From positions 8,791,143 through 8,855,142 of the forward strand of contig NC_079491.1 of the NCBI RefSeq assembly GCF_020520425.1: a DNA stretch of 64,000 bases, given 5' to 3'. The notes below the pieces were generated by a model. It was not told the DNA's origin. It saw nothing but the letters and a program-made list of their open reading frames with translations, and ran no database searches. This DNA is from Spinacia oleracea (lineage: Eukaryota > Streptophyta > Magnoliopsida > Caryophyllales > Amaranthaceae). Below, in pieces: positions 6,544-64,000 of this stretch (position 1 is its first letter; each line of letters starts with the position of its first letter). The position numbers were made by a program, and so were the translations under genes.

Positions 6544-6974
6544 CCATACAGTAATATATCCTATTGGAAATATATGTTCAGTTACTCGTTTGATTAACAA
6601 CCGTTCAAACAAAATCTAATAATTTTATTATAACACGTAAAAGAAACAAAATCTAATAATTTTATTATAACACGTAAAAGAAATTTGTAAACTGTAATCT
6701 TTTAATTCCAATCATCATAATTTTATTTTTTCCTTGATTTTTAATTTAGTTGATTTTATTAATATAATTATCTCGCATTAGGAATTAAGACATAAATATT
6801 CATTCCAAGTGCAGCAACACAATAAAGAGCTTGCAAGTTGGTGACAAAACTCGTAATTAGGACTTCATAATACGGAGTAATTGGCTGATGAATTCGTTTA
6901 ATTCATTTGATATCTTAGCATTTCGGCTCTGTTTGGTATGGCGGAAAACATTTCAAGTTAAAACTTATTTTCGA

Positions 6975-7767: not shown

Positions 7768-9765
7768 ATGGCAGGAGAGCAAATCGGGTTAAGCGGAGAG
7801 TTAATCGGAAGAGCTTCCGCCGTAGCCATAAAAGCTCACAAGTCATCTTCTGGTAAGCCTTATATATGTGAGAAATCTAGGAGCTCATCATCAGAAGTGA
7901 TCTTTGGATTCACAGGAACTTGGGATTTGGGTGACTGGTTTACGCATAAGCCATTTGGAGAGGCAAAGATCAACCTTAATCTCTTCCCTTCTCTCAGAAC
8001 CATTGGCAGCAACGAAGCTGCGACAGTAAACCAAGCATTTCTTCAAAGATTTGAAGCAATATTGACAAAAACATCACTGAAAAATGAGGTATGATCGTAT
8101 GAAATTAAGTAGCTTGTATTATCAAGAATTTATTTTATATTACCTGTAAATACACGAACAGTTAACTGAGTGGATTGATTCTCAGGTGGAAAAAGCTGCA
8201 GCAGAGAAACAGATAGTGTTTACAGGACATTCCTCAGGTGCAGCAACAGCCATATTCGCAACTCTGTGGTTCTTAGAATCCCGGAACCATATTCCACCTC
8301 GTTGTATAACCTTCGGTTCACCTCTTGTGGGTGACAAAATTTTAACTCATGCTATGAACCGAGAACATTGGAGTCAATATTTCACACACTTCATCATGAG
8401 ATATGACATCGTTCCTCGAATTTCCCTCACTTCCCTTCCTTCTATAGAAGGAGAATTGCAGCCAATTCTACATTACTACAATCCAAAATCTCCCTTTTAT
8501 GCAAGTGATTCTGTTGGAAGAACGGAAGAAGCTTCCCTGTTTGTACTGAAAGTAATGAGAAATATTTCATTACTGACCAGTCGTCTAGCCTGCAAATTCA
8601 TGGGGTGTACAAACTTCTTGTTGGAAAACGTGACCAATTTCATTGAACTAAGCCCTTACAAACCTTTTGGAACCTATGTGTTCTGCACTGGAAATGGAAA
8701 ATTTGTCACTGTAAAAAATCCAGATGCCATTCTCCAAATTTTGTTTTACTGCCTTCAGCTAGGGTCTGAATCTGAGTGGGATGAGGTAGCACAGAGAAGC
8801 CTGAAAGAGCATTTAATCTATGAATATGAATTACTCAAGAGCGTGGAAGTGCCAAGTGTAGCTTACTTGGAGCATCTGGTAGATCTGCCTTTATCAACAG
8901 AAAACATGGGAGAAAGTGAAAATTTCACCATATCTGGTGCTCTGAATGACCTAGGCTTGGTGAGTCCTAGACTACTCTCTCTTCTCACTTTTTGAATGTT
9001 TTCCTCCATTTTATGCAGTTGCTAACTAAAAGCTGGTTGATATTCCAGAGTGAAAGAGCCATACTGTGTCTTCGAGCTGCAGGGGAGCTAGAAAAACAGA
9101 AAGCTAGAAACCAAATCAAGATCAATGGCAACAAAACCAAAATCAGAGATGTGCTGAATATGCTTGAAAGATATCAAGCAAGTTGTGAGGTTCGTAAAAT
9201 AGGATACTATGATGCCTTTAAGATGCAAAAGCACACTGAAGACTTCCAGAACAATATAAGGAGATTGGAACTAGCAGGCATATGGGATGAGATAATAGAG
9301 ATGTTGAAAAGAAATGAATTACCTGACGAGTTTGAGGGGCAGAAAGAGTGGATTGAGATTGGTACCAGGTACAGGCGCCTTGTTGAGCCTTTGGATATAG
9401 CCAACTACTACCGGCATTTGAAAAATGAGGATACTGGGTCTTACATGGGAAAAGGTAGACCATCACGTTACATTTATATACAAAAATGGCGTGAGCATGT
9501 GGAGAAAATGGAGGCTGAACCCGTTCCAGAATCCTGCTTCTGGGCTGAGGTTGAGGAGCTTTGCATTAGTACCTGCAATACGCAGTTCTCTGGAGATGTC
9601 AGGGAGAGAGTTTACCGTCTTGAAATAAATGTATCATTATGGGCCCGGAATGAGCTGCTAGGCAAAGATGTATTCCTGAATGAATCCTCCTTTGTCCAAT
9701 GGTGGAAGAGGCTTCCCATCCAGCATAGATTAGTATCATGCATCAGGGATCTATTTCATGAATAA
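7768..9765 (+). CDS. EDS1: EDS1, lipase-like immune regulator
   Basis: Three exons, 7768-8088, 8186-8959 and 9049-9765, join in phase 0 to give 603 residues, close to the usual EDS1 length of about 600-625. The N-terminal alpha/beta-hydrolase domain has GHSSGA with Ser124, then Asp181 and His316. These sit almost exactly where Arabidopsis EDS1 carries its Ser-Asp-His triad (123, 187, 317). The C-terminal EP domain contains the conserved KIGYYDAF motif near residues 415-422. EDS1 forms heterodimers with PAD4 or SAG101 and relays signals from TIR-type NLR receptors to defence genes and cell death, in nucleus and cytosol. The start is the first ATG of the open frame. An alternative acceptor at 9018/9019 would add about ten residues at the exon 2-3 joint. 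The gene looks intact. Confidence 0.95.
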
Positions 9766-11263: not shown

Positions 11264-12120
11264 CAGGAATTAAATTCACTGCTTCTGCTGTTGGTATGTA
11301 CGCATTCACGCAACAGCAGATATTCCCACTTACAGGCTCTGAAAACAGAACTAAGCAACACATTATCACCTTTCACCAGCAAGCAGGATACCACCACAAC
11401 GAAAACATTAACCCAATAGCAAAACTAAACCAAAATCAAGCACGCATGACTTGGTCACAATCATTGCTGAAAGCCTGTAACATCACAAGCGATCATATGT
11501 AGGTGCACAATCAGTCACTAAACGGTGGACGAAAAGTGAGGTGTCAGCTGTCAGCTGTCAGAAGATTGGTATAGCACCAAATATTCCCCAAGGAAAAAAA
11601 TATCAACAATTATCATACTGTGTTGCTAACCTCAGTTATTTGCTATCCGTTAATAAGAGGAGGTTGGCGTAGTCTCTGCTTTTGTTTACTGGACCAAATT
11701 CAAGCGTGACCATACAAACTAATATACTAAAAAGATGACATCAAAACAAGGTAGCACAACTATAACTGTTAGTTTCCTTTCTCTGCAAACTATGATAATA
11801 TTGCCATAAGCCATTCACAATATGATAACACTCTTCGATCTCATGACATAAATCACTTCTACTATGTAACCACAACGAATCTGACAAGAGTCACAAGATG
11901 CATGTTCATGTCTTATGTTGATTTTGGAGCAGTTGCCTTGTGCACAACATTTTAAACAGCTTATCTCATACTCTCATACGCAACATACCAAATCTATTAA
12001 TCAATTGAAGGTTGACAGGGAAAATCAAAATGGATAAACAATGAAGAAGACCATGTCACTTGTACAAGCACCAGAATTTGCATTGTGATAACGTAATATC
12101 ACATATATAAAGTGTGAAAT
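11264..12120. other. Noncoding spacer
   Basis: No gene recognised. It may include more LINE-derived sequence too decayed to identify. Confidence 0.4.
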
Positions 12121-12430
12121 AAATAAGGCCACAATGCAGGCAAGTCACCTGTAAAAGAAAGTTTGATTCAACATCTTCACTTCCCAAGTTCTATTCTCTG
12201 TAACTCAGAGGTCATAGGCATTTCTTCACACCCAGGTCAGGAACAGGAAAAAGCGCAACCTGGGCCAGGTGTAAATAAGGCCACAATGCAGGCAAGTCAC
12301 CTCTAAAAGAAAGTTTGATTCAACAACTTCACTTCCCAAGTTCTATTCTCTGTAACTCAGAAGTCATAGGCATTTCTTCACACCCCAGGTCAGAAACAGG
12401 AAAAAGCGCAACCAGGGCCAGGTGTAATAA
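12121..12430. repeat. Tandem duplication, 2 x about 152 bp
   Basis: The block starting AAATAAGGCCACAATGCAGG at 12121 recurs at 12273 with only a few differences, both copies ending in CCAGGTGTAA. It is non-coding. The high identity suggests a recent local duplication. Confidence 0.85.
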
Positions 12431-14550
12431 GGTATGGAAACTACCACAGCAATGTTCAGAAAAAAGTTGATAAACTATTTTGGATACACGTTACTGAACT
12501 TGTATTTCGCTTCAAATATCCGTGTTAAAAGCTGACATTCACATAAGCTAAATAGTTTGCACTTCATTTGGTCCAAAAGCATGCAGACTTCCATTTTTTA
12601 AAAAGGAGTGACACTTAGACATGTGCCCATACACGTCCAACACCAGTAGCTTAGTTTGAGTAAAATATTGGAAACTACAATCAAATTTCTGAATAAACAC
12701 ACAAGGCTACAACAGAAGCAGCATCAATGTCTAGCATGAGGGTACAGGAGCAATAATTCAGAGTCAATAGCTCAATACTTTTGACACAGATTGGAAGGAA
12801 GAACGTCAAGTGGTCAGAAGATTACAAAAACAAGTGAGCCAGCAAACTACTTAGGAACTCAAAGAATTAAGATTTCAGAACCATATTCCAAACAAATTTT
12901 ATTTGGCTATCAAAATGGTCAGCAGAATAGAAGATCAATCCATCATAGCTTTCCAAAACATAAAGTAGTCAAAAGTATCCTTCACTATCCAAGGATCCAA
13001 CTTCTCAAGGATAATTTCCATGCAAAATATACTACATGTATTAACATTTTCCTACGCTGAAAAAAATCAGCTCGCGAATTATGTAACTTACCTGAATAAA
13101 GTAACACAGTTATATATCATGCTTCCCAAATTATATTATGATGCCCCAAAAAGATCTTCAAGCTTTACGACAATTCAAATTGGGAGGAACATCAAAACCA
13201 CAGTTAGAGAAAAAATAGGATATAAACACCTTTCGGCACCAGTCACTTCTTAAAAATGACAGCTAAAGAAATAATTACTATGAGAGCTATTTTGGTGCAC
13301 AATCTAGCCATGAAATTTCAACATGAAAGAAAGCTTTACATGCAATAATATCAGCATGTATGTGAGTCTACAGTATATCATGCATATTTGCATTACAAGT
13401 TACAAATAATGAAAATATACCTTCATAAGTACTTGGATGCAGGAAAGTGTGACCAGGAAACAACAATCAAAATTCAAGAACTGTTACATTCATGAATCAA
13501 GCAGTTCAAGTTTTTCTCAGTCAAAAAAATCTCTTTTTTTTTAATAGAACTGATGTCAAAAATGTATAAACAATCTTTAAAACTACGCAGTGAAGAAACC
13601 AAATAAAGAACATAGACAACAATAGCAGCCTTTCAACTTAAATATAAGCTGCTCTAGAAATAAGTTACACTAACTGCCTTTTAGCTGGCAATCTCCAGGA
13701 CTAAAGTTTCCTACTCTGCCTCATTTATGCTTCTCTGATTCAAGTTCTTCCAATTCATCCTTCTTCTAGTACTAGTATTTGTTTCCTCCAGATCTCCTAA
13801 TACAAGTAATTCTATTATTGTTGTTCAGCAACATCTTAAAAGATGACATGCTTTTCCAAGCTTAAAATGAAGCCTACATCTTTGACACCCTCAGGTAGTC
13901 AGGCCCCAATCTAACAGAATGTTGAATATATTTTTTGAGATAACTACTAGATGCTTCAGGAACAGTTCTTATAACTGGAGAACAACAGTATTACCCTTCA
14001 TGCTGCAAGGTTCCATACAAGTGACACAACATAAGTAATGGATCAATAATAACTGAAACAATTTCTTCAAAACCAAGGATCAACCTCCATACCAAACCAA
14101 ACAGTCAAACTGCAGGAATTAATGATGATGATTAAAAAAAATTACTAATAGCAGTAAATTAGTAATAATAACAAATAGCCCGGGAAAAATAAAATCAGAC
14201 AAATTCCATGATAATTTATATGAGAAAACTCAGATGAATGGCCATAGGCTTTGTGATTGATCCTTCCTTACAGCTCCTAGATTCATAATTTCATCCTCAA
14301 GATTCATAAGCCAAACTTCTCTTTTTCAGAGTTCTCACTATATTATGACTAACATCATTGACCTTGCATGTTAAGAACCTAAAGCAAAATCACTGACAAT
14401 AGACAATAAAAAGCCAGGACAACAAATTTATCTTCTCCAATCCTTAAGTTCAATAAAACCAGAAGTAACACCTTCAAATTCCATCTACTCCATTCACCTA
14501 TTGCCAGATTTAAGTACTGACTATCTTGATTTTTTTTTTTTAAGATATGA
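12431..14550. other. Noncoding spacer without recognised genes
   Basis: About 2.1 kb of AT-rich sequence with several T and A runs. No coding frame with family resemblance, RNA gene or delimited transposon was seen on either strand. Confidence 0.45.
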
Positions 14551-16181: not shown

Positions 16182-17535
16182 CTAAACCCTTGAACATGAC
16201 ATGCTACAAGAGCGAGCCAAACGAATTGTTAGACTACCACCGGACACACTGGCCTCCTTCTCTAGTGGTTCTGAAGCATACTCCTTCCTGCATCCAGGAC
16301 AACGGGCATCCGCCTCAAGGATCCGCTTGTGACAAAAAAGGCACAAATGGAACCCGCAAGGACAAGGGAGAAAACTTGAGTCTGTCAAGTCCAAATCCTC
16401 ACAGCATATAGGGCACGATGTAGGCACACGAGGAGTCGTATTACGACCCCAAGGGTTTGTAAACCCTTGAAGCCTCTCTGCACCAGATGGAAAACTCCGC
16501 TGTTTCTCCAAATTAGGTAAACTCTGAGGCCTAAAAGCATCATCCGGCCTCCAAGCTCTGCCATTCTCGCTACCCCTGCCCAAAATTCCAACCCTGTCGC
16601 TCTTCAATATCTCCACTTGGGCATCCACATTCTCACAGCTGGGATGCTGAGCTCCAGAACTCAACCCAACTGTGGTTTCTCGCTCAGGGAAAAGATTAGC
16701 ATTCTGATAATGACCCTGATTAGCATCGGGAGCACCTACCAAAGCATCTGCAGCAGCCTCCCAATCATCCAAACACCCATCATCCTCATCCTCATCACCA
16801 TTACCATCCTCTTCTTCTGAAATGCTCCCCGAAAAGCACCCACCACGGCTACTGAAGCTAGAAGTACTGCTGCTGCTGCTACCAGTATAAGTAGTCCCTG
16901 AATCATTCTCCCTAGAAATGCTACTTGTCGGGCTATTTGACGGGGACGATTCAGAGTCACTGTCATGGTGGTTGATCTCCTCCACTCTCGGGCTTTGCAC
17001 TTTTAAATCATTACAGCATTTGGCCACCTTCTTTCGAGTTTCAATCACCGGCCCATTGAATTGACCACCACCACCACCACCAGATGAAACAACAACAGGA
17101 ACATTCATTTCCTCCTTGCAATTCTTATTCTTAACTATTGAAACGAAAATCACAAAATCAATCAGCCAATCAATACAAGATAAACATCAAACACTAACCG
17201 ATAACTAACATATAAAAGAAAAATACAGAAATTGTACAAAATCAAAAAATAAAAATAAAATAAAAAAATGAATGCAGCACCTTGCGAAAGCCACTGTTCA
17301 CGGCGAGCATCAAGCTTACACTGCTTCAATTTCGCCGACCTATTCGCCTGTTAAATCAAAAACTCCATTGTCAGACCAAAATCAAACCAATTACATGCAA
17401 TCGAAAACATAAACCGAAAAATAAAAATTCAAATTGAAGAGATAAAAAAAAATAGTAATTAATTACCCTCTTCTTCTTGCCGAAATCCTTAGAAACATTG
17501 GGAATCGATGCATTGATGATTGAATCAGACACCAT
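16182..17535 (-). CDS. RING finger protein with NOT4-type C4C4 domain
   Basis: Three exons on the minus strand, 17535-17467, 17347-17281 and 17134-16182, join in phase to 362 residues. The start is the ATG at 17535. The N-terminus is basic (GKKKR, RSAKLKQCK). The middle is low complexity, with a six-glycine run, many serines and an acidic stretch rich in Glu/Asp. The C-terminal finger at residues 286-327 has Cys spacing C-x2-C-x13-C-x-C-x4-C-x2-C-x10-C-x2-C. That is the all-cysteine C4C4 pattern of CCR4-NOT subunit 4 RINGs, which act as E3 ubiquitin ligases. It resembles small plant RING/U-box superfamily proteins of unclear role and lacks the RRM of true NOT4. A TATATATA-like stretch near 17735-17745 lies about 200 bp upstream and may be the TATA box. 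Confidence 0.88.
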
Positions 17536-38590: not shown

Positions 38591-39392
38591 TATCAATACC
38601 ATCATCATGTATGTGAATGATGGTATGATTGAAGAGTGGTCTATGGTGGGCCTTTATGGTGGGCCTTTAGGCCCAAAATAAAGAGTAGTAGTGCACTAGT
38701 GCTTTCACCGGCATGAATGTCTCCATTCAATATTGGCCCACTACACTTTTCAACCAATTTCTTGCATTTCAAGTTACCCAAAGATGACAATGTTTAATTT
38801 ATCACAAGTCACAAAAATAAAGAAAACTCGATTTAAGGTTGGTAAATTTAGGTGACATCCTAAACTTTGGCCTTAATAATTGTCATGAATTTGTTTGCTT
38901 TATTAGTTGGGAATTATTTGCTTTAGGTAAATGATTTAATAATTACTTTATGAAAACTAACTTTAATTTTGTCAATTATTCATATTACGCCTTTGATTAA
39001 TGATTACATTTGTTTTGACTATTAACGAGTAAGTAAATTTATAATATTTTTTTTTAAAAAAAAAAAGGAATACTTGTGAGTTGTGAGGGACTAAAAGATT
39101 AAAGCCTTGAAGCAACCTATCCACTTGTTGTTTTAATGTTCTCATCTTAGGGGGTTGCTTTGGGTGTAGTTATTTTTAAATAAAAGTGAATGAATGTAAG
39201 AAACTGTAAATTTATACTACAATTTCCGTACGTTATTTCACCTAAAACTAACTTACCTAATCTTGTTGAAGTATATGTCTAACCAATCCACCAATGGCAA
39301 CATTTCGGAAACTTAGATACGGAGTACTAATTCCTTCGTTCTATAATTATGTTTCAGTTCCTACTTTTCATGCACGTTCACCAATGCACAAT
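38591..39392. other. AT-rich spacer before the Mutator-like element
   Basis: No coding frame or delimited repeat was recognised. Confidence 0.45.
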
Positions 39393-39401
39393 TTATTTTA
39401 T

Positions 39402-39487
39402 CGGTTTTTTCATGAAATGCCCCCGAGGTTTGCAAAAACGCACCAAATACCCTCGTGTCTTTCGAATCACATAATATACCCCTATTT
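39402..39487. repeat. Left terminal inverted repeat of the MULE
   Basis: Starts CGGTTTTTTCATGAAATGCC. It is nearly identical, when reversed and complemented, to 49093-49178. Confidence 0.9.
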
Positions 39488-40160
39488 TTGCCTAAGTTTG
39501 CACCAAATACCCCTAATCCGACCTTCCGTTAGTCCTCCGTTAAGTCATGTTTATAATTCACAGAATGCCCCTATTTTTAAACTTATTGCACAATATACAC
39601 CTATTTGTAAACTAAGTTTCACTAAATATCCAAACTGCTTTTTTTTTTCTTTTCTTTTCTCTCCATCCCTTCCTTCTCTTTTCCTGATCCATCTTCTCCG
39701 GTGCACTCCATTGTTCTACAACCGCCAACATAAGAATCAACGTGCAAACAATCAAATTCGAAATATCAATTACTTCCATTCACACTAATTGCCCACAAAT
39801 TGGACTGAGATTGGAGAAACAAGAAGGGCGGACCCACACTAGTAGAAAAATATTTATTTGCTGCTATGCGTTAGTGGCGTTAATTTAAAAACGCCTCTAA
39901 CTAAATGATAAAATGGAGGAATCAGGTGAAGGAGCATTCATTGGCGGCGTTAGTTTTAATTATAACGCCTCAAATCGGTGTTAATTTTTAGTTAGCGGCG
40001 TCTTCATGTATAACGCTGCAGTGTTCTAGCTTCCAATGCAGGAACAAAATTTCACCCCGCGCATAATTCTTTGTTTAGGTTCTCGTTATTTCATAAAACC
40101 TCCTCCCTAAACTGGGTCTGACTTTGAATTCTTTCTTCACCAGCGAGTCTCGCCGGAAAA

Positions 40161-40236
40161 ATGAAGCTTGAGATTCATCTCCACCGTCATTCTCTGGCCT
40201 TCGAACTCATATCCACCGTCGCCGTTCTTACTAAAG
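40161..40236 (+). pseudogene. Possible captured first exon, unrecognised gene
   Basis: An ATG at 40161 starts MKLEIHLHRHSLAFELISTV and reaches a good donor (AAAG/GTAAAT) at 40236. The preceding GC-richer stretch resembles a plant 5' leader. It lies in the left part of the CACTA element and could be the first exon of a captured gene. I do not recognise the family. Confidence 0.35.
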
Positions 40237-42361
40237 GTAAATTATGCTTCCACTCGTCTCTCCTCCTCGCCATTTTTTCCGTTCAATTACTATATTCCCC
40301 TTGTTTCAGTCTCTCAATTTTACATGAATATGTTTGAATTATCGAATCATTTCTCTCTTGCTCTCCCCTCTCCTCTCTCCCGCTGAAGCTGTAAAACCCT
40401 AATTATCAATTTCAAATTTTCGCTTAAAAACCTTAAAAATCCTTCGAATTTGAGGTCAGGTAATTTCGTGTGTCTAATTTATTATGAAAATTTGATTTTT
40501 AGGTCAGGTGCTTGGAAGAAAGAGGACCTCAAATTTGATAGAAACACGAGTTTTATTCCAATAAGACATACTTTTACTTGCTAAAACATGAGTTTTACTT
40601 TAATTGTCTATTTATATTTTCTGGGTTTGGTTTGAAATGAGTGCAGAAATCAGGGAGGTTGTTGCAACATCAAGTGCTATAATATAATTCAGAAGGTGAA
40701 TTTTTAAATTGAAGTTATTAATTTTTGTTGTTCTGATAATTAACTTGAGTGAGTTGTTATGGTATCGTTATTTTGTTTCAACTTTCATTATCTCTTGCTG
40801 TTGGATCTTTTCAATACACTAAATTATGGTGATTTAGCAAGTACTTAGTTCTACTTTAGGTGATTAAAATTAAACAATCAAATGATTGAGAAAATTTGGA
40901 CTTATACAACTTTTTCTTGTACGACTACTGATTATGGTGATATAAAGTCTAAAGAATGTATGTACATACTGTAGTATATTAAGTTTTGATATTGTAGTGG
41001 TAGTGTTGGACACTGTTGTTTGATTGTTATTGTTGAGGAACATATGAGTTATATTACACGGTTATATTGTTCATTGTTGCTCTTTGGAACTAGACGTCGG
41101 CAATACAAGAGTATAGAGTAATACACTTAGCTTAAATCTGAGGTTTCAATCCCCTTGTTTTATAAATGTATCTTGGCGGTGCTTAAATTTTTAGTATCTT
41201 TACCAGGAAGGGGAAAAAGTGTCTTGTGGTAGGTGATAAGTCTTGCTACTTCGTTGAATCTTAGCCCAGAAACACACCTGACTAATCAATTTTCAGAAGG
41301 CGACAAAGGGTGTGTCCCTCATCTCTCTGTGTAAAGTAGGTCGCAGTTCAGATAGTTGAGTCTGCTCTTTAGCTAGAAGTCTTATTGTGGAAGAAGTTTA
41401 TTAGAACCTATCTTTATTTATTGTTGGAGGTTGCTAAATTTTGATTGCATACGTAGGAGTATCATACTAGCTCACTGTAGGACAAAAGAACTCAATTACC
41501 AGCTTTTCTGGTTTAGTTTTGAGCAGCATATTGTAGAGATTTGAAGAAATTAAACAACTCCTGAAATAGATTGGCATTTGTTGCTTCTGATGTATTGTGA
41601 TGTTGATGTCTGATGTATTGTTGCTTCTACTATACTGTGTTGTTGCTATCTGTTGTTGTTGTTGTTATACTATGCTGTTATTATGAGATGTTGTTGCTGC
41701 TATGCACAATCTGTTGTTGATGTTGTTGTTGTTCTAAGTTGTAGCATCTGCTGTTATGCACAAGTTATTGCTGGTATAGATTTAGATAACTTTTACACTT
41801 CTTTTCGTATTATTTATCTACTATGTTTCAGCTAGGAACGTCTTTCTTGGGTGGTCTTTGGCAAGATACAATTACCAATTGGTTGCATGGTGCTGTGTTG
41901 TACTTCTGTCTCTAACTTATTACTTTCCATGTCCTACTTAGATGACTCCCAAACTATGGATTTCCCCTTTAATAGCATCCAAAAGCTTCACCTACCTCCT
42001 CTCATTAGTTCTAATGTAGGCTAAGCTTTACTGCGGACAAGTCCCAGAATAATTTAGAGCTTTATTATTTGTGATTTGTGACAGCATGCCCCCTTTGCCT
42101 TTATGCTCCTAGGTTATTCATGGGTGTTGTATATAACGCCAGTACACTTTGACTACTGTTTACAGGGTTTTATTAGCTTTAAACTGGTTTATATCAGCTG
42201 GATAATGGCCTGATATATGAGACTAGCTCTGAGGAGAGCTAATATGACCCTAGGTTTTATTGGCTTTAAACTGATTCAGGTGTTGTCTATTAACTGGTCT
42301 TTGCCAGGAGAAGGCTGCTCTGTTTTTTTTTGGTAGAAGATACAAGCACACAAAGGAAGAA

Positions 42362-42922
42362 TCACCCATATTTTCTAGCTTTTTGAGCCAGATCATGGGC
42401 AAACTTAACTCTATTTCTACTACATTTGACAATGGAGCAGTGTTCAAAACTATCAGCTATCATTCTAATCTCACTGCAAATTGAAACCAGTTCTAATCTA
42501 CATTCAGGAAACTCCCTTAATGCTTTAATACTGTTGTACCAATCAGTGAGAATTGTTAAACATCGAACTTGAAGAGATACAGCTTTCTGCATACCAGCCA
42601 AAATTGCCTTCATTTTAGATTGTCCAGCATTTACTGCTTGTACTCTCTGACCATCTGCACACACAATTCTTCCATTTACTTCTATACCCCATCCTACTGC
42701 AGCAATCATACTCCCTTTCTTCTTTAAGTTTTTCCATGCCCCATCAACAATAAGTACATCTGCATTATCATCAGATAAACCTTTTAGAATCAGCCTGTTT
42801 TCATTAGTGCTAGACCAATCTGTTTCTGAATGTGTATTCTTCCTTTTGAAAGTCATGTTGCGCATTCTATCTGCTTCAATTGCTTCTTTCAAAAACACTT
42901 GACTTGTTTCAATTATCTGCAA
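42362..42922 (-). pseudogene. LINE RNase H domain fragment (RVT_3)
   Basis: An open minus-strand frame of 186 codons reads VDGAWKN, GWGIEVNGRIV, QAVNAGQSKMKAILAGMQKA, LTILTDWYNSIKAL and VKFAHDLAQKARKYG before the stop. This matches the RNase H-like domain at the C-terminus of plant LINEs. That enzyme degrades the RNA strand after reverse transcription. The first acidic residue (VDGAW) and the late NxxAHxLA-type motif (here VKFAHDLA) are recognisable, while the middle Glu position reads QSKMKA instead of the usual AEx, so the active site may be lost. It is a fragment embedded in the CACTA element. Confidence 0.7.
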
Positions 42923-43153
42923 TGGATCAAAAGAAGTGCCTCAGAAAATAATACAGTTTATATGAATCCAGATGATGATGCTTCAAAGTTAGTTGATTTT
43001 CAGAAGATCATGAACTTTTCTTCTGAATTTGAGACTGTTTTAAAGGAGGTTATGTTCATTTCTGAATCTGATAAGAATGATGAAAGATTAAAGAGAGAAA
43101 TGCTGGCAAATGCTAGACAGTTGATTCTACGATGTGACTTTACTGTTCCAGAA
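42920..43153 (+). pseudogene. Exon-like segment, unrecognised, inside the CACTA element
   Basis: The frame is open and of coding character: KLVDFQKIMNFSSEFETVLK, then ERLKREMLANARQLILRCDF, ending at a consensus donor GTAAGT after VPE. A second short block, VSLAACQLMKLVHQTLQ near 43313-43365, may be a following exon. I could not assign a family. It is probably a captured or internal exon of the element. Confidence 0.4.
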
Positions 43154-45551
43154 GTAAGTCTCATTCAACCTGTCTTATATCTTTGTGCTCATCTGCTGGA
43201 ATTACGTACTAACAATTAGCTCTCAGGAGTTTAGCAGCAAAGGACCTAAGTTCATAAATAACACATACAATGATTGTGCTGTCAATTTGCTTTTTTCGTC
43301 AGAGAGGTGTATAGTGTCCCTTGCTGCTTGTCAGTTGATGAAGTTGGTGCATCAAACACTTCAAGTAAGATAGTTATTTCTGGCTATTATTCTGACTTGT
43401 TCACTTGTTTATATTATCATTATGTATAATCACACTAAGCTTTCATTTTGGCAAATTATGATGGAATGTGATACATGGATCATTCTGATTAGCGGATAAA
43501 CCCCATGAAATGTTAAACTTGACATGTTTAAGAGTTACTTCACATGAACATTTTTCTTCACCATTTTATCACAGTTATACCTATTAGTTTTGCTTCGTGA
43601 ACATTTTGCTTCATTTAGACCCATTAGTTTCTGAAATGGAAACTATTTTGTGTTATGATCATCTATTATGATACAACTAGGTTTATTTTTTTTGACTGTT
43701 GGTTAATTAAATAGAAATTGTGTTAGTTGAGATTTTAAGGGGGTTAATTGCAAAATTGCAATGCTACTTTTTTCTTGAAGTATGCTCACTTTTAGGAAGC
43801 TTCATTTGCAAATACTGTTATTAGGATTAGGTTATGGTTCTTGGCTTCCTATTGGAGTTACCTGATGCAGTTTTTATACAGTGTGGAACAGGCTTGTCAA
43901 CTCCCCTGAACACATCTTCTACGCGGCAAATGAAATCTGCAAAAGATCTGGCTGAATATTTGAAAAAATTTCGTGCAGACAACATTGTGAACAATGCTGA
44001 ATTCATTAGAGAGAGCATTGTTCCAGAAGCTGGGCCTTGGACTATCTTGGGTCAGGTGTAAATTGACTTAGGTACTTGTCTCTTGATTGTTTTGCATGAT
44101 TTCATGCATAGTTTGCGAGTACAGACGCTGTATATTTTGCAATGTTCCATGTATTGTTTATCTTAACTAAGTTTTAACTAGTATTTGTTCCTCATAACCT
44201 TTCCATGCTTGATCCAACTTTTCACAGTCTAGTGGAAAGAAGTGTATTTATAGAGTAAACAAAAGAATGTTCGTGTGTGTTTTCTATTCTTTTGATCCTA
44301 GGTATTTAGGATTCATGTCATCTTTTTATTCTATTTTGAGATCTCTGCCTGTGTAGTTTGCATACTAATTGTTGAGCTCCTTGTCACTATTTAGTCATAA
44401 AAATTAATGACCCTAATTATATACCGTAATTCTTTAGTCTTCCCAATTTCTTCTTTTCTTTGTTCGTTCCCTTAATTCCTCTGTTTTTCACAGGCTTAAG
44501 AGAGCCTGGGATCCTGTTATAACTCCAGGTGCACAAAAGCAACTCAGTTATTACTTTCTGAATGCAGTAAGTACAACCAATACCTGTAAGGTTGTAATTC
44601 AAGTACAATGACTCTATTATTTACTTGGTATGACAATTATTTGCTTGAAACTTTCATGGATGGCAGTTTGATAATTGGGGGGGTTTCAACACGAACCCAC
44701 TATATGCGATACTTCATGAGGTGATTTACTGCCAAGTAAGTTTAGTCTCTATCAGTATAGATTTTTTTTAAAATAATAAAAACAAGCCGCCCGCATGCAT
44801 ACATTGGAGCATAAATGCTTGCTTCTGCATGTCTAGCAAAGATTTCATGATAATCATGATTAATGTTTTCGATTCTGCAGGGTGTTCCATCTCAGTGGGC
44901 TGCTCAAAGAATAAGGGAGGCCAACGGAAGCAAGTTTGACGCAATCAAAGCAGCAAAAGAAGGGCGTCCTGTATATTTTACGGGAGAGGTAACTTTCTGG
45001 AGATTGTATTTCATAATTATGTAGTGTAGTAAACTAGTAATCATTGGGATATAACGTATGCTCAGTTCTGGTAATGGGCTGAAGCTAATGCTACAACTAC
45101 AATTATAGTATGTTAGTATTACTTCTGGACTTCAAGGAGATATTTCATATTCTTATCCAAGAATTGACCATAGACTGCTAATAATACCCGAGTGCCTTAT
45201 TATATTGCTTAACCATGCGAACTGATCGAGCTCTTTGAATTTGATATTTTGATTTAACAAGCACCACACAGAAGTACATGGTTTACAGTTTGTATCTGTT
45301 TACTAATTTCTTAACACCACACAAAAGTACATGGTTATGGTTAGTATTGTCATATACTGGAGTTCACATTATATGCATCAATAATTCTTTGATTTCCAAT
45401 GAACCTAAGATAACAGGTCTTGCATAAAATTAAAAATAGTTGTCTGTTTAAGCATGAAACAGAAAATTTAAATCTCAAATGTTAAAGATAAGAAGGAATG
45501 ACAGTTTCCTGGGAGAATATTCATATTGGCGCAGTTGAAAGAAACAAAACA

Positions 45552-45740
45552 CAAGCTTTGTTCTGATCAGACTTTCAATTCTGACCAGTTTCAGACTTTC
45601 AATTCTGATCAGTTCAAGCTTTGTTCTGATCAGACTTTCAGTTCTGATCAGTTTCAGACTTTCAGTTCTGATCAGTTCAAGCTTTGTTCTGATTAGACTT
45701 TCAGTTCTGATTAGTTTTAGACTTTTAGTTGTGATCAGAT
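45552..45740. repeat. 63-bp tandem repeat, three copies
   Basis: CAAGCTTTGTTCTGATCAGA starts copies at 45552, 45615 and 45678. Each holds sub-repeats of GATCAG/TTCAGACTTTCA. The array lies inside the CACTA element. Confidence 0.85.
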
Positions 45741-45779
45741 GCAAGCTTCTGTTTTTGTTTTCAGCTATCTGTACGTTTA

Positions 45780-45903
45780 TCTGACACAGCACATCAGAAC
45801 ACACACACATCACACACACACACCTGAAATACACACAACACACACAAACACACAACACAGGTAACACAGACAGTAGAACACACACACAACATAACACACG
45901 CAG
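45780..45903. repeat. CA-rich microsatellite
   Basis: About 120 bp of interrupted ACACAC/CACACA repeats directly after the 63-bp array. Confidence 0.85.
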
Positions 45904-45995
45904 CAATTCTATTGCATGTTAGTTCTGGTCAAAGTTGACCAGGATTGACTTTTTTGAGATTTTGGTCAAAGTTGACCAGCGTTGCAGTGTGGAGG

Positions 45996-47131
45996 TAACC
46001 TAATACTAAGTATATTAAAAATTGAAAGGGTTTAGAATACCAATCTAAGTTCACGGGTTAGAGTTGGGAGCAAAAACGACTATAACACTCAAAATATGAC
46101 CTATAATGATCAATAAAGCCTTAAACGCGCATAACTTGACCAAAGTAGATGAGAATGAGTCTAAGTAACCTAATACTAAGTATATTAAACATTTAAAGGG
46201 TTTAGAATACCAATCTAACTTCACGGGTTAGAGTTGGGAGCAAAAATGACTATAACAGTCAAAATATGACCTATAATGATCAATAAAGCCTTAAACGCGC
46301 ATAACTTGACCAAAGTAGATGAGAATGAGTCTAAGTAACCTAATACTAAGTATATTAAACATTTAAAGGGTTTAGAATACCAATCTAAGTTCGCGGGTTA
46401 GAGTTGGGAGCAAAAACGACTATAATAGTCAAAATATGACCTATAATGATCATTAAAGCCTTAAACACGCATAACTTGACCAAAGTAGATGAGAATGAGT
46501 CTAAGTAACCTAATACTAAGTATATTAAACATTTAAAGGGTTTAGAATACCAATCTAAGTTCACGGGTTAGAGTTGGGAGCAAAAACGACTATAACAGTT
46601 AAATATGACCTATAATGATCAATAAAGCCTTTAACGCGCATAACTTGACCAAAGTAGATGAGAATGAGTCTAAGTAACCTAATACTAAGTATATTAAACA
46701 TTTAAAGGGTTTATAATACCAATCTAACTTCACGGGTTTGAGTTGGGAGCAAAAACGACTATAACAGTCAAAATATGACCTATAATGATCAATAAAGCCT
46801 TAAACGCGCATAACTTGACCAAAGTAGACGAGAATGAGTCTAAGTAACCTAATACTAAGTATATTAAACATTTAAAGGGTTTAGAATACCAATCTAAGTT
46901 CACGGGTTAGAGTTGGGAGCAAAAACGACTATAATAGTCAAAATATGACCTATAATGATCAATAAAGCCTTAAACGCACATAACTTAACCAAAGTAGATG
47001 AGAATGAGTCTAAGTAACCTAATACTAAGTATATTAAACATTTAAAGGGTTTAGAGTACCAATCTAAGTTCGCGGGTATGACATTTATTGTCATGAATAT
47101 GACTATAACAGTCAAAATATGACCTTTATTG
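45996..47131. repeat. 170-bp satellite, seven copies inside the CACTA element
   Basis: TAACCTAATACTAAGTATAT begins copies at 45996, 46166, 46336, 46506, 46675, 46845 and 47015. Periods are 170, 170, 170, 169, 170 and 170 bp, and similarity is very high; the last copy is partial and diverged. The unit contains GACCTATAATGATCA, TTAAACGCGCATAACTTGAC and AGATGAGAATGAGTC. The length is near that of plant satellite monomers, but the setting is an intron-like part of a transposon, not a centromere. Confidence 0.92.
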
Positions 47132-48216
47132 TTTAAGTGGACTAAGTTTTATTGATGGAAAGACACACGATTTTTGGTTGCTTTATTGTCATGAATAATG
47201 TTGTTGTCATGTTGTCAAGGTTCTTGATTCTAAGGGTTTCGCCCTTCCATGCTTAGCCATGGTTCGAGGACCTAGGAGACAACAACTTTTTAGATCATCT
47301 AACCGAAGATAACTAATTTTATGATATATATTATTTTGTTAGGTTTGCACATCACTGAGTGGAGATCCTTTCACCGATGAGAAATTTGATGAAATACGAG
47401 ACAAATGGGCATCATACTTCAACGAACATTGTGTGTAATTAACGCTTCATCGATTTCTTTTTGTGGATGTTTCATGCTATTAAAATCATATATAATTGCC
47501 TTATTATATTTTTGGTGCAATTTTGTAACGTATGAAGTGTAAAAGATATAGTTATTATAGACTTGAAACTATTAGGTGGTTTAGTTTTGTAAACATATGA
47601 TGTTTAACTTATATGTAAAAATCAAAGTTTCTTGGAAGTTATTGGTGGTTGATGACACTTTTGGACGTTGTATAAATGTGGCGTGAGTACAGGTTCTATA
47701 TTTTTGGGATTGTTGAATATAAAAATAATATATTTATTTATCAAAAAAAGTTACACATTATTTGCGGCGTTTAAACTCCCGCAATTTTACCAAAGTTTGA
47801 GGCGTTTAGGTAGAAACGCCGCAATACAATACTATTCATTTGAGGCGTTTTTTCTGCATTACGCCGCAAATGAATGATTAATTTGAGGCGTTTTTTAACG
47901 CCGCAAATCAATACCATTCATTTGCTGCCACTCTATTTGCTGCTACGCCTAAAACGCCGCTAATGAATATAAAAGTGACGCCTCAAATGAATGTTTTTCT
48001 ACTAGTGCCAGAGAAGAACATACGGGATTGAGCTACTTAAAACACAAAGGCTGCAATAATTAAACCACTTTATCAAAGATATTCAGATCAACAACACTTA
48101 CAACAACATTTACAGAGAATTCCTTAACTAAGTGCTTCATACTATCTTAGTAGTAAGTCAGAAACCTTAGAATTAGAATTCGATTCTGGAAATCCACCAC
48201 CATAAATCCATAATCA

Positions 48217-48509
48217 ATGTCTGCTTCTACATTGACTCCCAATTTTCTTCAAACAGTCTCCACTCAATTTTACTCACTCTCCCAATTCCGAATTCCCAAC
48301 ACCCTCAACTTCTCGAATTTCATTCAATTGCAAATCAAAATACCCAATTTCGTCAAAATCAGCTTCAATTCTAACCCTAAATGCAGCACTTTTTGACCCT
48401 TTTGTGCTTCAAATTGCAGAAACTTTTGAAGACTCTCTCTCCTCTTCATCTTCTTCAACTCCCTTACCTTTGCAGAAACTAAGGGATTCGTCCTTCGAAT
48501 CCCTTCTTT
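48217..48509 (+). pseudogene. Captured first exon of SufD/ABCI7 (plastid Fe-S assembly)
   Basis: The ATG at 48217 opens a Ser/Asn/Phe-rich leader resembling a chloroplast transit peptide. After one frameshift at a T-run near 48390-48394, DPFVLQIAETFEDSLSSS and TPLPLQKLRDSSFESLLS follow. These closely resemble the N-terminus of plastid SufD (ABCI7), a subunit of the SufBCD iron-sulfur cluster scaffold. Similarity stops at 48509, where the family continues with TPWPSRKDE. The fragment lies in the right part of the MULE, outside the nested CACTA, and fits Pack-MULE capture. No function as SufD is possible. Confidence 0.7.
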
Positions 48510-48584
48510 CTCTATTGCTCGTTGCACTTGAGTGGGTCAATGAATCGACGGTGCAACCGAGGATGTTGAACCCTGGGCCGAGAT

Positions 48585-48885
48585 CGGCCTCCGCCGGCGA
48601 CCAGAGAACGGAAATCGGACGCCGTCGGCTATCAGAGAGCAGGAGGAAGAACAACTTCGTTTTTTGCACCGCCGCGAAACTTCCGCACCACCGGAGAATC
48701 GACAACCTTCCCAATGCGGCCACCGGAGAACGACCACCCTCCGCGAAGCCAAGTCGACCACCATCAACATCTGATTTAAGTGATCCTCCGGATCACTGTC
48801 GGCGACCAGAGATCGGCCTCCGCCGGCGACCAGAGAGCGGAGATCGGACGTCGCCGGCGACCAGAGAGCAGGAGGATCTACCCAG
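48585..48885. repeat. GC-rich duplicated segment inside the MULE
   Basis: The sequence GATCGGCCTCCGCCGGCGAC occurs near 48585 and 48812, each followed by about 50 bp of similar CGGAGATCGGACG-type sequence. This produces open frames on both strands that look like proteins rich in Arg and Pro. The base composition is much higher in GC than the surroundings. I see no domain in it. Confidence 0.7.
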
Positions 48886-49092
48886 AATTACTGGGTTTCG
48901 AGTAGGTTGAAGCTTGAAGAACAGGGGAGAGGAGAGAGAAATAGAAGAATATGAGATTTTTTTTTTTGAGTTTTTGTCAAAGGGAAGGTAAGTAAATGGG
49001 GTCATAACACAATTAAGGGCAAAATAGTAAAACTCCACTAACGGTAGACTAACGTCGTTAACTGTTAGGTGCATCTCATGAACAATACGGAT

Positions 49093-49178
49093 AAATAGGG
49101 GTATATTATGTTAATCGAAACACGCGAGGGTATTTGGTGCGTTTTTGTAAACCTCGGGGGTATTTCATGAAAAAACCG
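49093..49178. repeat. Right terminal inverted repeat of the MULE
   Basis: Ends ATTTCATGAAAAAACCG, followed directly by the 9-bp duplication TTATTTTAT. Mirrors the left repeat over about 85 bp. Confidence 0.9.
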
Positions 49179-49395
49179 TTATTTTATTTACAATTATATA
49201 TTAGTAAAAATTATAAAATTTTGATATTCTTAAAGTTTTGTTTGTGACGAATCAAACAAGACCTCACATGAACATGTTCTTTCGTATGTTCTAGATTGAT
49301 TTAGAAGATTATATCTGGTTGTCATAATGACAAAATTCTGAATTGAAATATCATTATGGAACGGAGGAAGTATGTAATTAACAACATATTACGTA

Positions 49396-50660: not shown

Positions 50661-52221
50661 TGTTAAGATCTGACCCATGAAACATCACGTGTGAGAGTCC
50701 CACATTGACAAAAGAGAAGAGAATTAATCACTAAATAAGGCCAAGGGGCTACTACCCTTATTGCCATATGGTTTTAAGGTGGAACCTCCTATGATCTTGT
50801 TAAGTGGACTCTCTCTCTTGGTGACGGGTGCGGCTCAGATCCGTATTTAACATGGTATCAGAGCCGGGCCCACAGTTGGGACTTTCTTTAATACTCTGGG
50901 CCAAATTAAAATGGCACGTGTGAGGGGAAGTGTTAAGACACTCTGGCCCATGAAACATCACATGTGACCGAACTAAAAAGTGGACCTCACACGTAAGAGG
51001 GAGTGTTGAAGAAAGTCTTCCCAAAGAACACATGTGAGTGTCCCACATTGAGAAGAGATTAGAGAGTTAATCACTTAATAAGGCTAAGGGGCTACTCCCC
51101 TTATTGCCATATGATTTTAAGGTGGAACTTCCTTTGGCCTTGTTAAGTGGACTTTCTCTCTTGATGACGGGTGCGGCCCAAACCCGTATTTAACATTGTA
51201 TTAGAGCCGGGCCCACGACTTGGACCGTTAATATTCTGGGCCAAATTAAAATGGCACGTGTGAGGGGGAGTGTCGAGAAACGCACTCTGGCCCACGAAAC
51301 ATCACATGTGACCGAACTAAAAAGTGGACCTCACACGTGAGGGGGAGTGTTGAAGAAAGCCTTTCCAAAGAACACATGTGAGTGTCCCACATTGAGAAGA
51401 GATGAGAGAGTTAATCACTTAATAAGGCTAAGGGGCTACTCCCCTTATTGCCATATGGTTTTAAGGTGGAACTTCCTTTGGACTTGTTAAGTGGACTTTC
51501 TCTCTTGATGACGGGTGCGGCCCAAACCCGTATTTAACATTGTATCAGAGCCGGGCCCACGACTTGGACCGTTAATATTCTGGGCCAAATTAAAATGGCA
51601 CGTGTGAGGGGGAGTGTCGAGAAACGCACTCTGGCCCACGAAACATCACATGTGACCGAACTAAAAAGTGGACCTCACACGTGAGGGGCAGTGTTGAAGA
51701 AAGCCTTCCCAAAGAACACATGTGAGTGTCCCACATTGAGAAGAGATGAGAGAGTTAATCACTTAATAAGGCTAAGGGGCTACTCCCCTTATTGCCATGT
51801 GGTTTTAAGGTGGAACTTCCTTTGAACTTGTTAAGTGGACTCTCTCTCTTGATGACGGGTGCGGCCCAGACCCGTATTTAACATGGTATCATAGCGGGGC
51901 CCACGACTTGTGGCTCGAACAGTTAATATTCTGGGGCAATTGAATAGGATCCATGTGAGGGAGAGTGTTTGACCCATGAAACATCACATGTGACCCATAT
52001 TGAAAAGGGACCTCACACGTGATGGGAAGTGTTAAGATCTAACGCATGAAACATCACGTGTGAGAGTCCCACGTTGATAAAAGAGAAGAGAGTTAAACAC
52101 TTAATAAGGCCAAGAGGCTACTCCCCTTATTGACATATGGTTTTAAGATGGAACCTCCTTTGGACTTGTTAAGTGGACTCTCTCTCTTGATGACGGATGC
52201 GACCCAGACCCGTATTTAACA
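50661..52221 (+). mobile_element. Tandem TRIM retrotransposon array with five 192-bp LTRs
   Basis: Five long terminal repeats of exactly 192 bp lie at 50661-50852, 51004-51195, 51348-51539, 51692-51883 and 52030-52221. Each begins TGTT and ends TTTAACA. Four internal segments of 151, 152, 152 and 146 bp lie between them. Each opens with a methionine-initiator-tRNA primer binding site (TGGTATCAGAGC or a near match) and ends in a purine tract such as GTGAGGGGGAG. These are the parts of a terminal-repeat retrotransposon in miniature, with no gag-pol. Flanks GAATC (50656-50660) and AAATC (52222-52226) are a 5-bp duplication with one mismatch. LTRs 1 and 5 (TGTTAAGATCT start) resemble each other, and LTRs 2-4 (TGTTGAAGAAAG start) form a second type. 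Each LTR carries a TCCCACATTG-type motif. Confidence 0.9.
50853..50864 (+). other. Primer binding site (initiator tRNA-Met) of the TRIM
   Basis: TGGTATCAGAGC is complementary to the 3' end of plant initiator tRNA-Met and follows the first LTR directly. Equivalent sites start at 51196 (TTGTATTAGAGC), 51540 (TTGTATCAGAGC) and 51884 (TGGTATCATAGC). The last three carry mutations. Confidence 0.88.
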
Positions 52222-53673: not shown

Positions 53674-53675
53674 TA

Positions 53676-54003
53676 CTCCCTCCGTCCCGGAATACTCGAC
53701 CCGGTTTGACCGGCACAGAGTTTAAGGGACTTGAATTGACTTATTTAATTTAATAGGTAGTAGTTGATAGTGGGGTATTATTTTAATGTAGTTAGTGGGA
53801 GGTGGGTTAAGAGGTGGGGTTGGGGGAGAGTAGGGGTTGAATTTTTAATTATTTTTTGTATGGAGTAAGGGGTAGGTGGGTTAATAGGGGTGGAGTGAGA
53901 AATAATATAATATTGTTAGAATATTTCCATTTTTAGAAACAGGTCAAGTATTAAGGGACGGCCCGATAAGGAAAACAGGTCAAGTATTCCGGGACGGAGG
54001 GAG
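53676..54003. mobile_element. Stowaway MITE, 328 bp
   Basis: CTCCCTCCGTCCCGGAATAC at the left end has a near-perfect inverted copy at the right (about 32 bp, three mismatches). TA flanks both ends (53674-53675, 54004-54005). An extra internal copy of the AACAGGTCAAGTATT segment lies 30 bp before the right end. Well preserved and probably young. Confidence 0.92.
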
Positions 54004-54005
54004 TA

Positions 54006-60966: not shown

Positions 60967-61404
60967 ATTAAGATAAAGGTTAAATATGAGGGCAAACTCA
61001 CCCTAATGTTGCCCTTAATTTTTGCGCCCAAAAAATCAATAACTGTCTCACCAAAGACTCACGTAATCAATAACTACCCACTACCAATCCACCATTAACC
61101 AAACATAATCAAAGTTCGTCATACAGTCTAAAAAGTTCTTCAAAACGTCGTCGTATCTCATGGAGCACATGACTCCAACTGACAACTTCACATCCTCTCT
61201 TTACAGTTTAAAAAGCCCCCCAAAACTTCACTTTACACCTTACCACAATACAAAAGCAACTCTTCACTTTCTCTCTCCTCCCACCACCGCCCACCACCAA
61301 TGCCACCGGATATCCTCTCCCCGCCGCCGCCACAACCACCACCATCACCACCCTTGTAATAATCAAATTCACTTATTTCCCTCTCTGTCTACTATCCTTT
61401 ATCA
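60967..61404. promoter_or_regulatory. Promoter and 5' leader of the SPIRAL2-like gene
   Basis: Noncoding sequence rich in C and A, with CCACC repeats at about 61280-61360, leading into the ATG at 61405. A small upstream open frame begins at 61160. No clear TATA box was singled out. Confidence 0.5.
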
Positions 61405-64000
61405 ATGGCGCCTAAACAGTCATCGGCGACAATGTCACGTGATCTTCGCCACCGTGTTCTCACGTGCATGACAAAGCTTTCCGACAGGGATACGCTTTCC
61501 CAAGCCGTGTCGGAGCTGGACTCTATCATTCCTACGCTAACCTCCGACACATTCTCTCTGTTCATTAACTCTCTTTCCTCCACATCTACCGCCGACCGCT
61601 CCGCCGTACGCGTCTCCTCCCTTAAACTCCTCGCTTCTCTCTCCGCCTTCCATGGTACCTCTCTCTATCCTCACCTGCCCAAACTCATCTCCGCCGTCGT
61701 CCGTCGCCTCCGCGATCCTGACTCTGCCGTCCGGTCTTCCGCCGCAACTACCACCGCTTCCTTTGCTCACCACATCAGCCACTCTCTCTCCTCCATTTTC
61801 CGCCCTCTCGCGGACTCACTCTCCTCGGAGCAGGACTTCTCCGCGCAATCAGCCGCCGCGATGTGTCTCTCCGCTGCAATTGAATCGTCTCCGGCGCCGG
61901 AGACATCTCAGTTACTGAAGGTGTTGCCGAAGTGGATGAAGCTGTTGAAATGCGACGGATTTAAGGCGAAAGCGTCGTTAATTGTGTTGATGAAGAGTGC
62001 AATTAGGGTTTGTGAGATTGGAAATTGCAATTTGTTGAGAGATTTAGTGAATTGTTTGATCGAGTATTTGAAATCCGAGGATTGGGCCGCTAGGAAGGCG
62101 TCTGCGGATGCGTTGAAGGAGATGGCGGTGGTGGAGAAGGAAAATTTGTCGGAGATGAAGGTTTCTTGCTTGAAGATTATTGAATCTAGAAAATTTGATA
62201 AGGTTCGAATTTTTTAAAAAACCATAGAAATTTGTTGATTAGATTTGATTTAATTCTGATCAATTTGTGATTTTTGAATGATGTTTGTTTTTGTAGGTAA
62301 AAGCAGTTAGAGAATCAATGAATCAACTGTTGGATGCTTGGAAGGAGGTTCCTGATGTGTTTGATGATGGATCACCACCTCCTCATTCTCAAGAATCTTC
62401 CAGAGGTCAATTTCTTGTTCTCTCTCCCTTTTTAATGTTTTGTTAGAAATGTAAATTATGATAAACATATGATTCATTACAGATGGGAGTAGATCATAGT
62501 ATCATACTCTAGGCGAATTAATTTGATTAGTGTTTTGGGAGCCTCAACCCAAGATAATAATGTAGACGAGATTTTATTCCTTCAAATTCAGTAGTAAACC
62601 TAAGTGATTACACTGATCCAAGTACGTATGGGTTTAAGGAGTTTGTTCTAAGGGTTTTATGTTTTGAAATTACATTATGCTAGGTTTAAGAGAGTTGAAA
62701 TTCTCATGTAGGATTGCTGTTTGCTTTGCTTTAATGATGCATCTCTCTTTTCAATCCGTTTTGCCTGCAAATTTATATGCTGAACTTGGAATATAGATCA
62801 TGTGCATTTTCTGTATTGAACTTCTGGTGGATTGTGTTGTTATTTGGATGCTCTGTAATGTCTTCGCACCTTCATTCGTCTGATGGGTTTCGATCTATAT
62901 GGATAACAGATAATACCAGTGATGGACGGTTCCCTGCACGATCTAAAATGTCTAGTGCAGTTGACTCTAATAACACTCCTCAAACAGGCAGAAGCTGTTT
63001 TCCGGCTAAGAAATCATCCCCCTCTGATAGTGCTTTGAAAACCACGGCCAGAAACAGAGGTGCTCCTGATGTTACAATTAAGAGGTCAAGCCCACAAGTT
63101 TTCAGGAAGCTTGATTCCAAGAAGCTTTCTGCTGTGAATGGTGATGCTAATGATCTTCATGGTTCATCTGTTACACCGGATTATGGAGAAAATTCGGTGG
63201 AATATGACGAAGGTGTTCAAAGAAGGGCAGATGTCAGATCTTCGAAGCAAGAAACTAAGCGAGGTCTTTTTAGCAAGAACACTGGTTCGCGTGTGATGCC
63301 ATGTTCTGAGGATGACTATGAAGCTACTGGAACTGTCAGCAATACTTCTGCGGATGTTTGTAAACACCACAAAGAATTTGAGGATCTTTCTCTTATCCGC
63401 AAGCAGCTTGTTCAAATTGAAAACCAACAGTCCAGCTTGATGGATATCCTTCAGGTGATTCTTGGATTACTTGCTTGTTATCTACAGTATTTATTTTTGG
63501 TCCTGCCGACATATAACGAAAAGGAACTTCAACTTTTTAGATTTGTTTTATTCTGCTTTTCCTGTAATATGTTTTTATTAGAGGGCATTATTCTTGTGCT
63601 AACATTGAATTTCCATTTTGAATCAGAAATTTATTGGAAGCTCACAGGACGGTATGCGTACTCTTGAGACACGTGTACATGGCTTAGAAATGGCCATGGG
63701 TGATATCTCCTATGACTTGGCCATGTCAACTGCACGGATGTCCTCTGCCGAAGCCACAAGGAGCTCATGTTGCATGCTGCCTGGTCCAGACTTTTTAAGC
63801 TCTAAGTTTTGGAGGAGACCTGATGGCCGTTGCTCAACCTCGCGTTTTTCTTTTGGTGGCACCACTCCTTCGGTTTCAGCTATGCGCAGTATTACCGATA
63901 GGAGGCCTGGCGAACCAGTTGGACATGAGAACAGGAGGTTTAGCCTTCGAGGTCCTGGTGGAGTTATCATGAATCCATTGGCTGATATTCATGGTGATTC
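61405..64000 (+). CDS. SPIRAL2/TORTIFOLIA1-like microtubule-associated protein, 5' part
   Basis: Four exons are visible: 61405-62202, 62297-62405, 62910-63454 and 63627 to the window edge, giving about 608 residues with compatible phases. The N-terminal 300 residues are a TOG-like HEAT array, with ELDSIIPTL, SLKLLASLSAFHG, AAAMCLSAAIE, LIEYLKSEDWAARKASADAL and KAVRESMNQLLDAWKEV. A Ser/Lys-rich linker follows, then a coiled-coil block LIRKQLVQIENQQSSLMDILQ and GMRTLETRVHGLEMAMGDIS. This order is that of the plant TOR1/SPR2 family, which bind cortical microtubules, stabilise minus ends and control straight versus twisted growth. The ATG at 61405 is chosen because the conserved HEAT region starts right after it. 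The gene is open at 64000 and continues outside. No defect seen. Confidence 0.9.

Follow-up and report, generated by a model that had tools for sequence, protein, structure and literature searches.

CACTA elements of Chenopodium, including Jozin, have been described with captured gene fragments and, in some of them, a Peptidase_C48 domain in open reading frame 2 (ORF2) (PMC8978399). Among the Mutator-like elements (MULEs) of maize and rice, more than one-third of the candidate coding-MULEs contained another element (PMC3903597). A literature search on CACTA and MULE elements in Spinacia found no report other than one listed paper on carnation. Here, we describe a locus of Spinacia oleracea, within a 64,000-nt stretch of contig NC_079491.1 (the window, whose numbering is used throughout), in which sequence structure points to two nested elements. 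The locus very probably consists of two non-autonomous, gene-carrying DNA transposons: a Pack-MULE with the start of an ABCI7 gene, later hit by a Jozin-like Pack-CACTA (Table 1).

Pack-MULEs have long ends and a target-site duplication (TSD) of 8–11 bp, usually 9 bp. The outer element started with CGGTTTTTTCATGAAAT at 39402, was flanked on both sides by the 9-bp TSD TTATTTTAT, and measured approximately 1.6 kb without its CACTA insert. The repeat search returned inverted arms of 96 nt that were 90% complementary, 3 nt of which lay inside the TSD. A 9-bp match in the MULE flanks was expected by chance with a probability of approximately 1.5e-5 (empirical, from pairs of positions in the two 2-kb flanks) or 1.9e-5 (from base composition). 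Long terminal inverted repeats, a 9-bp TSD, and a host gene fragment were found together, with no transposase domain by Pfam, as in a Pack-MULE.

The inner element had perfect 14-nt termini, CACTAGTAGAAAAA. Six matches to this sequence occurred in the window at up to two mismatches, and the two that were mismatch-free were the CACTA ends. The chance of any 3-bp TSD-like match was approximately 0.017. For the 12-nt subterminal unit ATTTGCGGCGTT, 51 matches were found in the window (up to three mismatches) vs. a mean of 37 expected after shuffling the whole 64 kb; 15 of the 51 fell in the two subterminal zones, which together cover less than 400 bases, and the units there were present in both orientations. 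The features shared with a Pack-CACTA were CACTA ends, a 3-bp TSD, subterminal units, and host gene fragments, with no transposase domain.

Because the CACTA TSD lies inside MULE sequence, the MULE inserted before the CACTA. An earlier note, made from the letters of the window, had proposed this nesting, its base-precise borders, and the relative timeline; sequence reading, with the repeat search for the MULE and the end search for the CACTA, reproduced both sets of coordinates exactly, and the order followed from structure. No second copy of the joined empty site was found in the window, and no part of 39393–49187 matched the rest of the window at 1e-4. Stowaway miniature inverted-repeat transposable elements (MITEs) have a TA target site and CTCCGT-type inverted ends. 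The MULE may sit in a Stowaway-like MITE of approximately 265 bases, a putative third nesting layer: its possible ends had TA at both sides and an inverted-end score of 49, vs. a maximum of 44 in 500 single-base shuffles. Elsewhere in the window, a Stowaway-like MITE lay at 53674–54005; its CTCCCTCCGTCCC ends were clean, and each was bordered by TA.

ABCI7 is a chloroplast SufD-type protein, 488–501 aa long in quinoa, Bienertia, Beta, and Amaranthus. The SufD/ABCI7 exon assigned to the outer element in the earlier note corresponds to the ABCI7 start. Quinoa ABCI7 matched the MULE in two frames (tblastn; 29 aa at 69% and 69 aa at 81%), which places a frameshift at approximately 48287–48303, and the match broke off within the coding part. 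No ABCI7 match named Spinacia was present among 24 matches or among the best 120 of 805, where rows without a species label could include Spinacia; the larger search scored the 7990 candidates with the most shared words. A predicted protein from a 1106-base contig, P0121, matched the right half of the MULE over 237 of its 264 residues (48217–48928), with two residue differences (stops uncounted) and one 1-base shift, and crossed the ABCI7 frameshift without changing frame. TGA accounts for all five stops of the matched part, each shown as W. P0121 was rejected as a transcript of this MULE, being a translation that reads TGA as W; it is an annotation artefact from MULE sequence of this family. 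Its source may be a second copy of the right half or the same locus.

The CACTA carried exons of two host genes, ZW10 (two exons) and an At3g61540-type proline iminopeptidase (four exons). The iminopeptidase exons had been recognized in the earlier note, which overlooked ZW10 and read 42962–43153 as iminopeptidase; that assignment was rejected, as a Pfam hint below the cut-off and tblastn with the Spinacia protein both pointed to ZW10. The captured exons had splice-like borders, and the retained introns indicate that capture occurred at the DNA level. Iminopeptidase exon A stopped just ahead of the likely nucleophile serine, which was absent from the captured copy. Residue differences from Spinacia were 6 of 55 in exon A and 2 of 83 in exons B–D (Fisher test, P = 0.059), which is suggestive only of a difference in age between exon A and the others. 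Among the matches listed, the closest named proteins for ZW10, the iminopeptidase, and the Ulp1 tail described below were from Spinacia oleracea (one of the protein searches behind this result covered the best 120 of 304 matches, from 7811 candidates). Full-length Spinacia proteins exist for ZW10 (P0124) and the iminopeptidase (P0001), which argues against this locus as the parent of those two genes, a possibility raised in the earlier note.

No transposase domain was found by Pfam in either element when all six frames were scanned with stops read as X, and Pfam found no ORF1 domain in the CACTA. The scan works on such input, because it recovered an RNase H piece, its only match at E ≤ 0.5. 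Thus, both elements fit the Pack-TYPE description. Some observations weigh against this reading. The six-frame scan overlooked a weak ZW10 match that was seen with the single exon 42962–43153 (Zw10_middle, E = 0.0011, below the cut-off), which means that it could also miss short, worn transposase remnants. The superfamily of the MULE was assigned from its ends and TSD. P0121 covers only the right part of the MULE, and no outside copy joins the left and right parts.

The RNase H frame probably derives from a long interspersed nuclear element (LINE), as the earlier note had it; the frame itself was confirmed, and the Pfam family is the evidence for the origin. An A-run lies just past its 3′ end. 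No stretch of at least 7 bp was shared between 42230–42340 and 42880–43000, so the piece has no visible TSD. The satellites that the earlier note placed in the inner element were recovered as two tandem arrays. The six complete copies of the 170-bp unit differed pairwise at 4–8 positions. This array showed no similarity to the quinoa 171-bp satellite as printed (scores of 22 and 19 vs. maxima of 35 and 31 in 100 shuffles). When the 63-bp repeat was folded as single-stranded DNA, only 1 of 200 shuffles folded as well; nothing is drawn from this, because the repeat holds inverted repeats of its own. LINE pieces and tandem arrays can form in place, and the array, the RNase H piece, and the gene parts might have arrived after CACTA insertion instead of being carried along. 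We consider this unlikely: quinoa CACTA elements have satellite arrays at the equivalent place, near the 3′ end (PMC8978399), and the capture of genes by a fixed element would require a separate mechanism.

The terminal exon near the right end of the CACTA matched the C-terminal end of Spinacia P0136, itself a Peptidase_C48 protein, and this match replaced its assignment to another host gene. Some Chenopodium CACTA elements are reported to have Peptidase_C48 in their ORF2, so the exon is probably the end of the CACTA's own ORF2. One splice combination, which skips two exons, left a 200-codon ZW10–iminopeptidase–Ulp1-tail frame; inclusion of all exons led to an early stop. There is only a slim chance that the CACTA is transcribed and spliced to such a chimeric mRNA (200 residues), or that it yields small RNAs directed at the two parents, ZW10 and iminopeptidase; chimeric transcripts and small RNAs had both been raised as possibilities in the earlier note. 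Still less probable is that the ZW10 part, the iminopeptidase part, and the Ulp1 tail form a new chimeric gene under selection. That the inner cargo is a set of ordinary host gene remnants over which transposon ends fell by chance is scarcely credible: introns and splice sites are indeed present as in host genes, but unrelated incomplete pieces (ZW10, iminopeptidase, Ulp1 tail) stand in a row, enclosed by matched CACTA ends and their TSD, and the full-length ZW10 and iminopeptidase proteins exist in Spinacia.

Under the preferred reading of two successive gene-carrying transposons, the Pack-MULE would have picked up the ABCI7 start and then inserted, possibly into the Stowaway-like MITE; later, the Jozin-like Pack-CACTA would have landed inside it. 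The CACTA, with no recognizable transposase, appears to have kept its ends, its subterminal repeats, and probably its last ORF2 exon, and would hold genomic ZW10 and At3g61540-type iminopeptidase pieces with introns, the RNase H piece, and the tandem arrays. Its movement would need the transposase of autonomous relatives. If the element were transcribed, the retained splice sites could give mixed transcripts, as in Tgm-Express1 of soybean.

Table 1 Features of the nested locus (window positions; a dot marks features without strand)
Feature	Position	Strand	Evidence or remark
Possible Stowaway-like MITE around MULE, left end	39325..39371	.	inverted-end score
MULE TSD TTATTTTAT (9 bp), left	39393..39401	.	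read in sequence
Outer MULE (Pack-MULE)	39402..49178	.	inverted arms and TSD
MULE left terminal inverted repeat, ~93 nt	39402..39494	+	repeat search
CACTA TSD CCA (3 bp), left	39834..39836	.	read in sequence
Inner CACTA, 8171 bp, ends CACTAGTAGAAAAA	39837..48007	+	end search
Left subterminal zone, 6 units like ATTTGCGGCGTT	39856..40002	.	
RNase H frame (RVT_3)	42365..42940	-	Pfam PF13456, E 9.7e-12
ZW10 exon, first of two	42962..43153	+	tblastn with Spinacia P0124; donor gtaagt
ZW10 exon, second of two	43227..43364	+	91% over 47 aa; ag/gt borders
Iminopeptidase exon A	43892..44055	+	tblastn with Spinacia P0001, 88% over 59 aa
Iminopeptidase exon B	44494..44566	+	tblastn match overruns exon; 23/24 residues equal inside exon
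Iminopeptidase exon C	44667..44735	+	tblastn, 100% over 23 aa
Iminopeptidase exon D	44881..44988	+	tblastn
63-bp tandem repeat, 3.2 copies	45552..45753	.	repeat search
170-bp tandem array, 6.4 copies	45995..47077	.	repeat search
Ulp1/Peptidase_C48-type terminal exon with stop	47343..47438	+	27/31 residues equal to Spinacia P0136
Right subterminal zone, 9 units like ATTTGCGGCGTT	47760..47988	.	
CACTA TSD CCA (3 bp), right	48008..48010	.	read in sequence
Captured ABCI7/SufD start in MULE	48217..48487	+	tblastn with quinoa ABCI7 P0123
GC-rich MULE stretch	48540..48900	.	60% GC vs. 36% for window
MULE right terminal inverted repeat, ~93 nt	49086..49178	-	repeat search
MULE TSD TTATTTTAT (9 bp), right	49179..49187	.	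read in sequence
Possible Stowaway-like MITE around MULE, right end	49327..49376	.	inverted-end score

Elsewhere in the window, a tandem array with a 344-bp unit (4.5 copies, 50686–52221) was found 1.5 kb downstream of the MULE, and tandem duplications occurred at 12120–12468 (152-bp unit, 2.3 copies) and 6607–6683 (37-bp unit, 2.1 copies, 100% matches). Pieces of ordinary genes encoded an ABC transporter (630–2685), a Lipase_3 protein (8150–8992), a RING_4 zinc finger protein (16185–17186), and a TORTIFOLIA1-type protein (61363–62214); the RING protein (16185–17153) was 99.4% identical over 323 aa to P0145, from a short contig. No Rfam family scored above its own cut-off in the window.

The locus is a well-bordered nest in which two gene-carrying transposons from different superfamilies hold parts of three captured host genes, and its order of events is readable. 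Gene capture by CACTA elements and MULEs is well described in plants, so its value is that of a clean but ordinary worked example, and it offers a place for testing the splicing or silencing of captured exons in Spinacia. In rice and maize, Pack-MULEs and other Pack-TYPE elements likewise hold gene pieces between transposon ends with no transposase (PMC8903248, PMC3903597), whereas the spinach Pack-MULE is interrupted by a gene-carrying CACTA. Other elements inserted in MULEs are also found in maize and rice; those hosts are coding-MULEs, in which the maize inserts are mostly LTR (long terminal repeat) elements and the rice ones a common MITE (PMC3903597). The term CACTA is absent from the main text of that study. 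Tgm-Express1, a soybean CACTA with five gene fragments, similarly carries several unrelated pieces in which introns and splice sites have been retained; it lies in a gene intron with alternative transcripts demonstrated (PMC1947982), whereas the spinach CACTA lies in a MULE and is known from sequence. Compared with the Chenopodium elements, the spinach CACTA captured different host genes and has no detected transposase domain, and the captured pieces in Chenopodium lie upstream of ORF1 (PMC8978399). The likeness to Jozin and its relatives extends to the first 14 nt, identical in a C. iljinii end, to the 12-bp subterminal units, to captured gene fragments, to the satellite arrays that quinoa elements have close to the 3′ end, and to length (8258 to 10,109 bp vs. 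8171 bp here) (PMC8978399).
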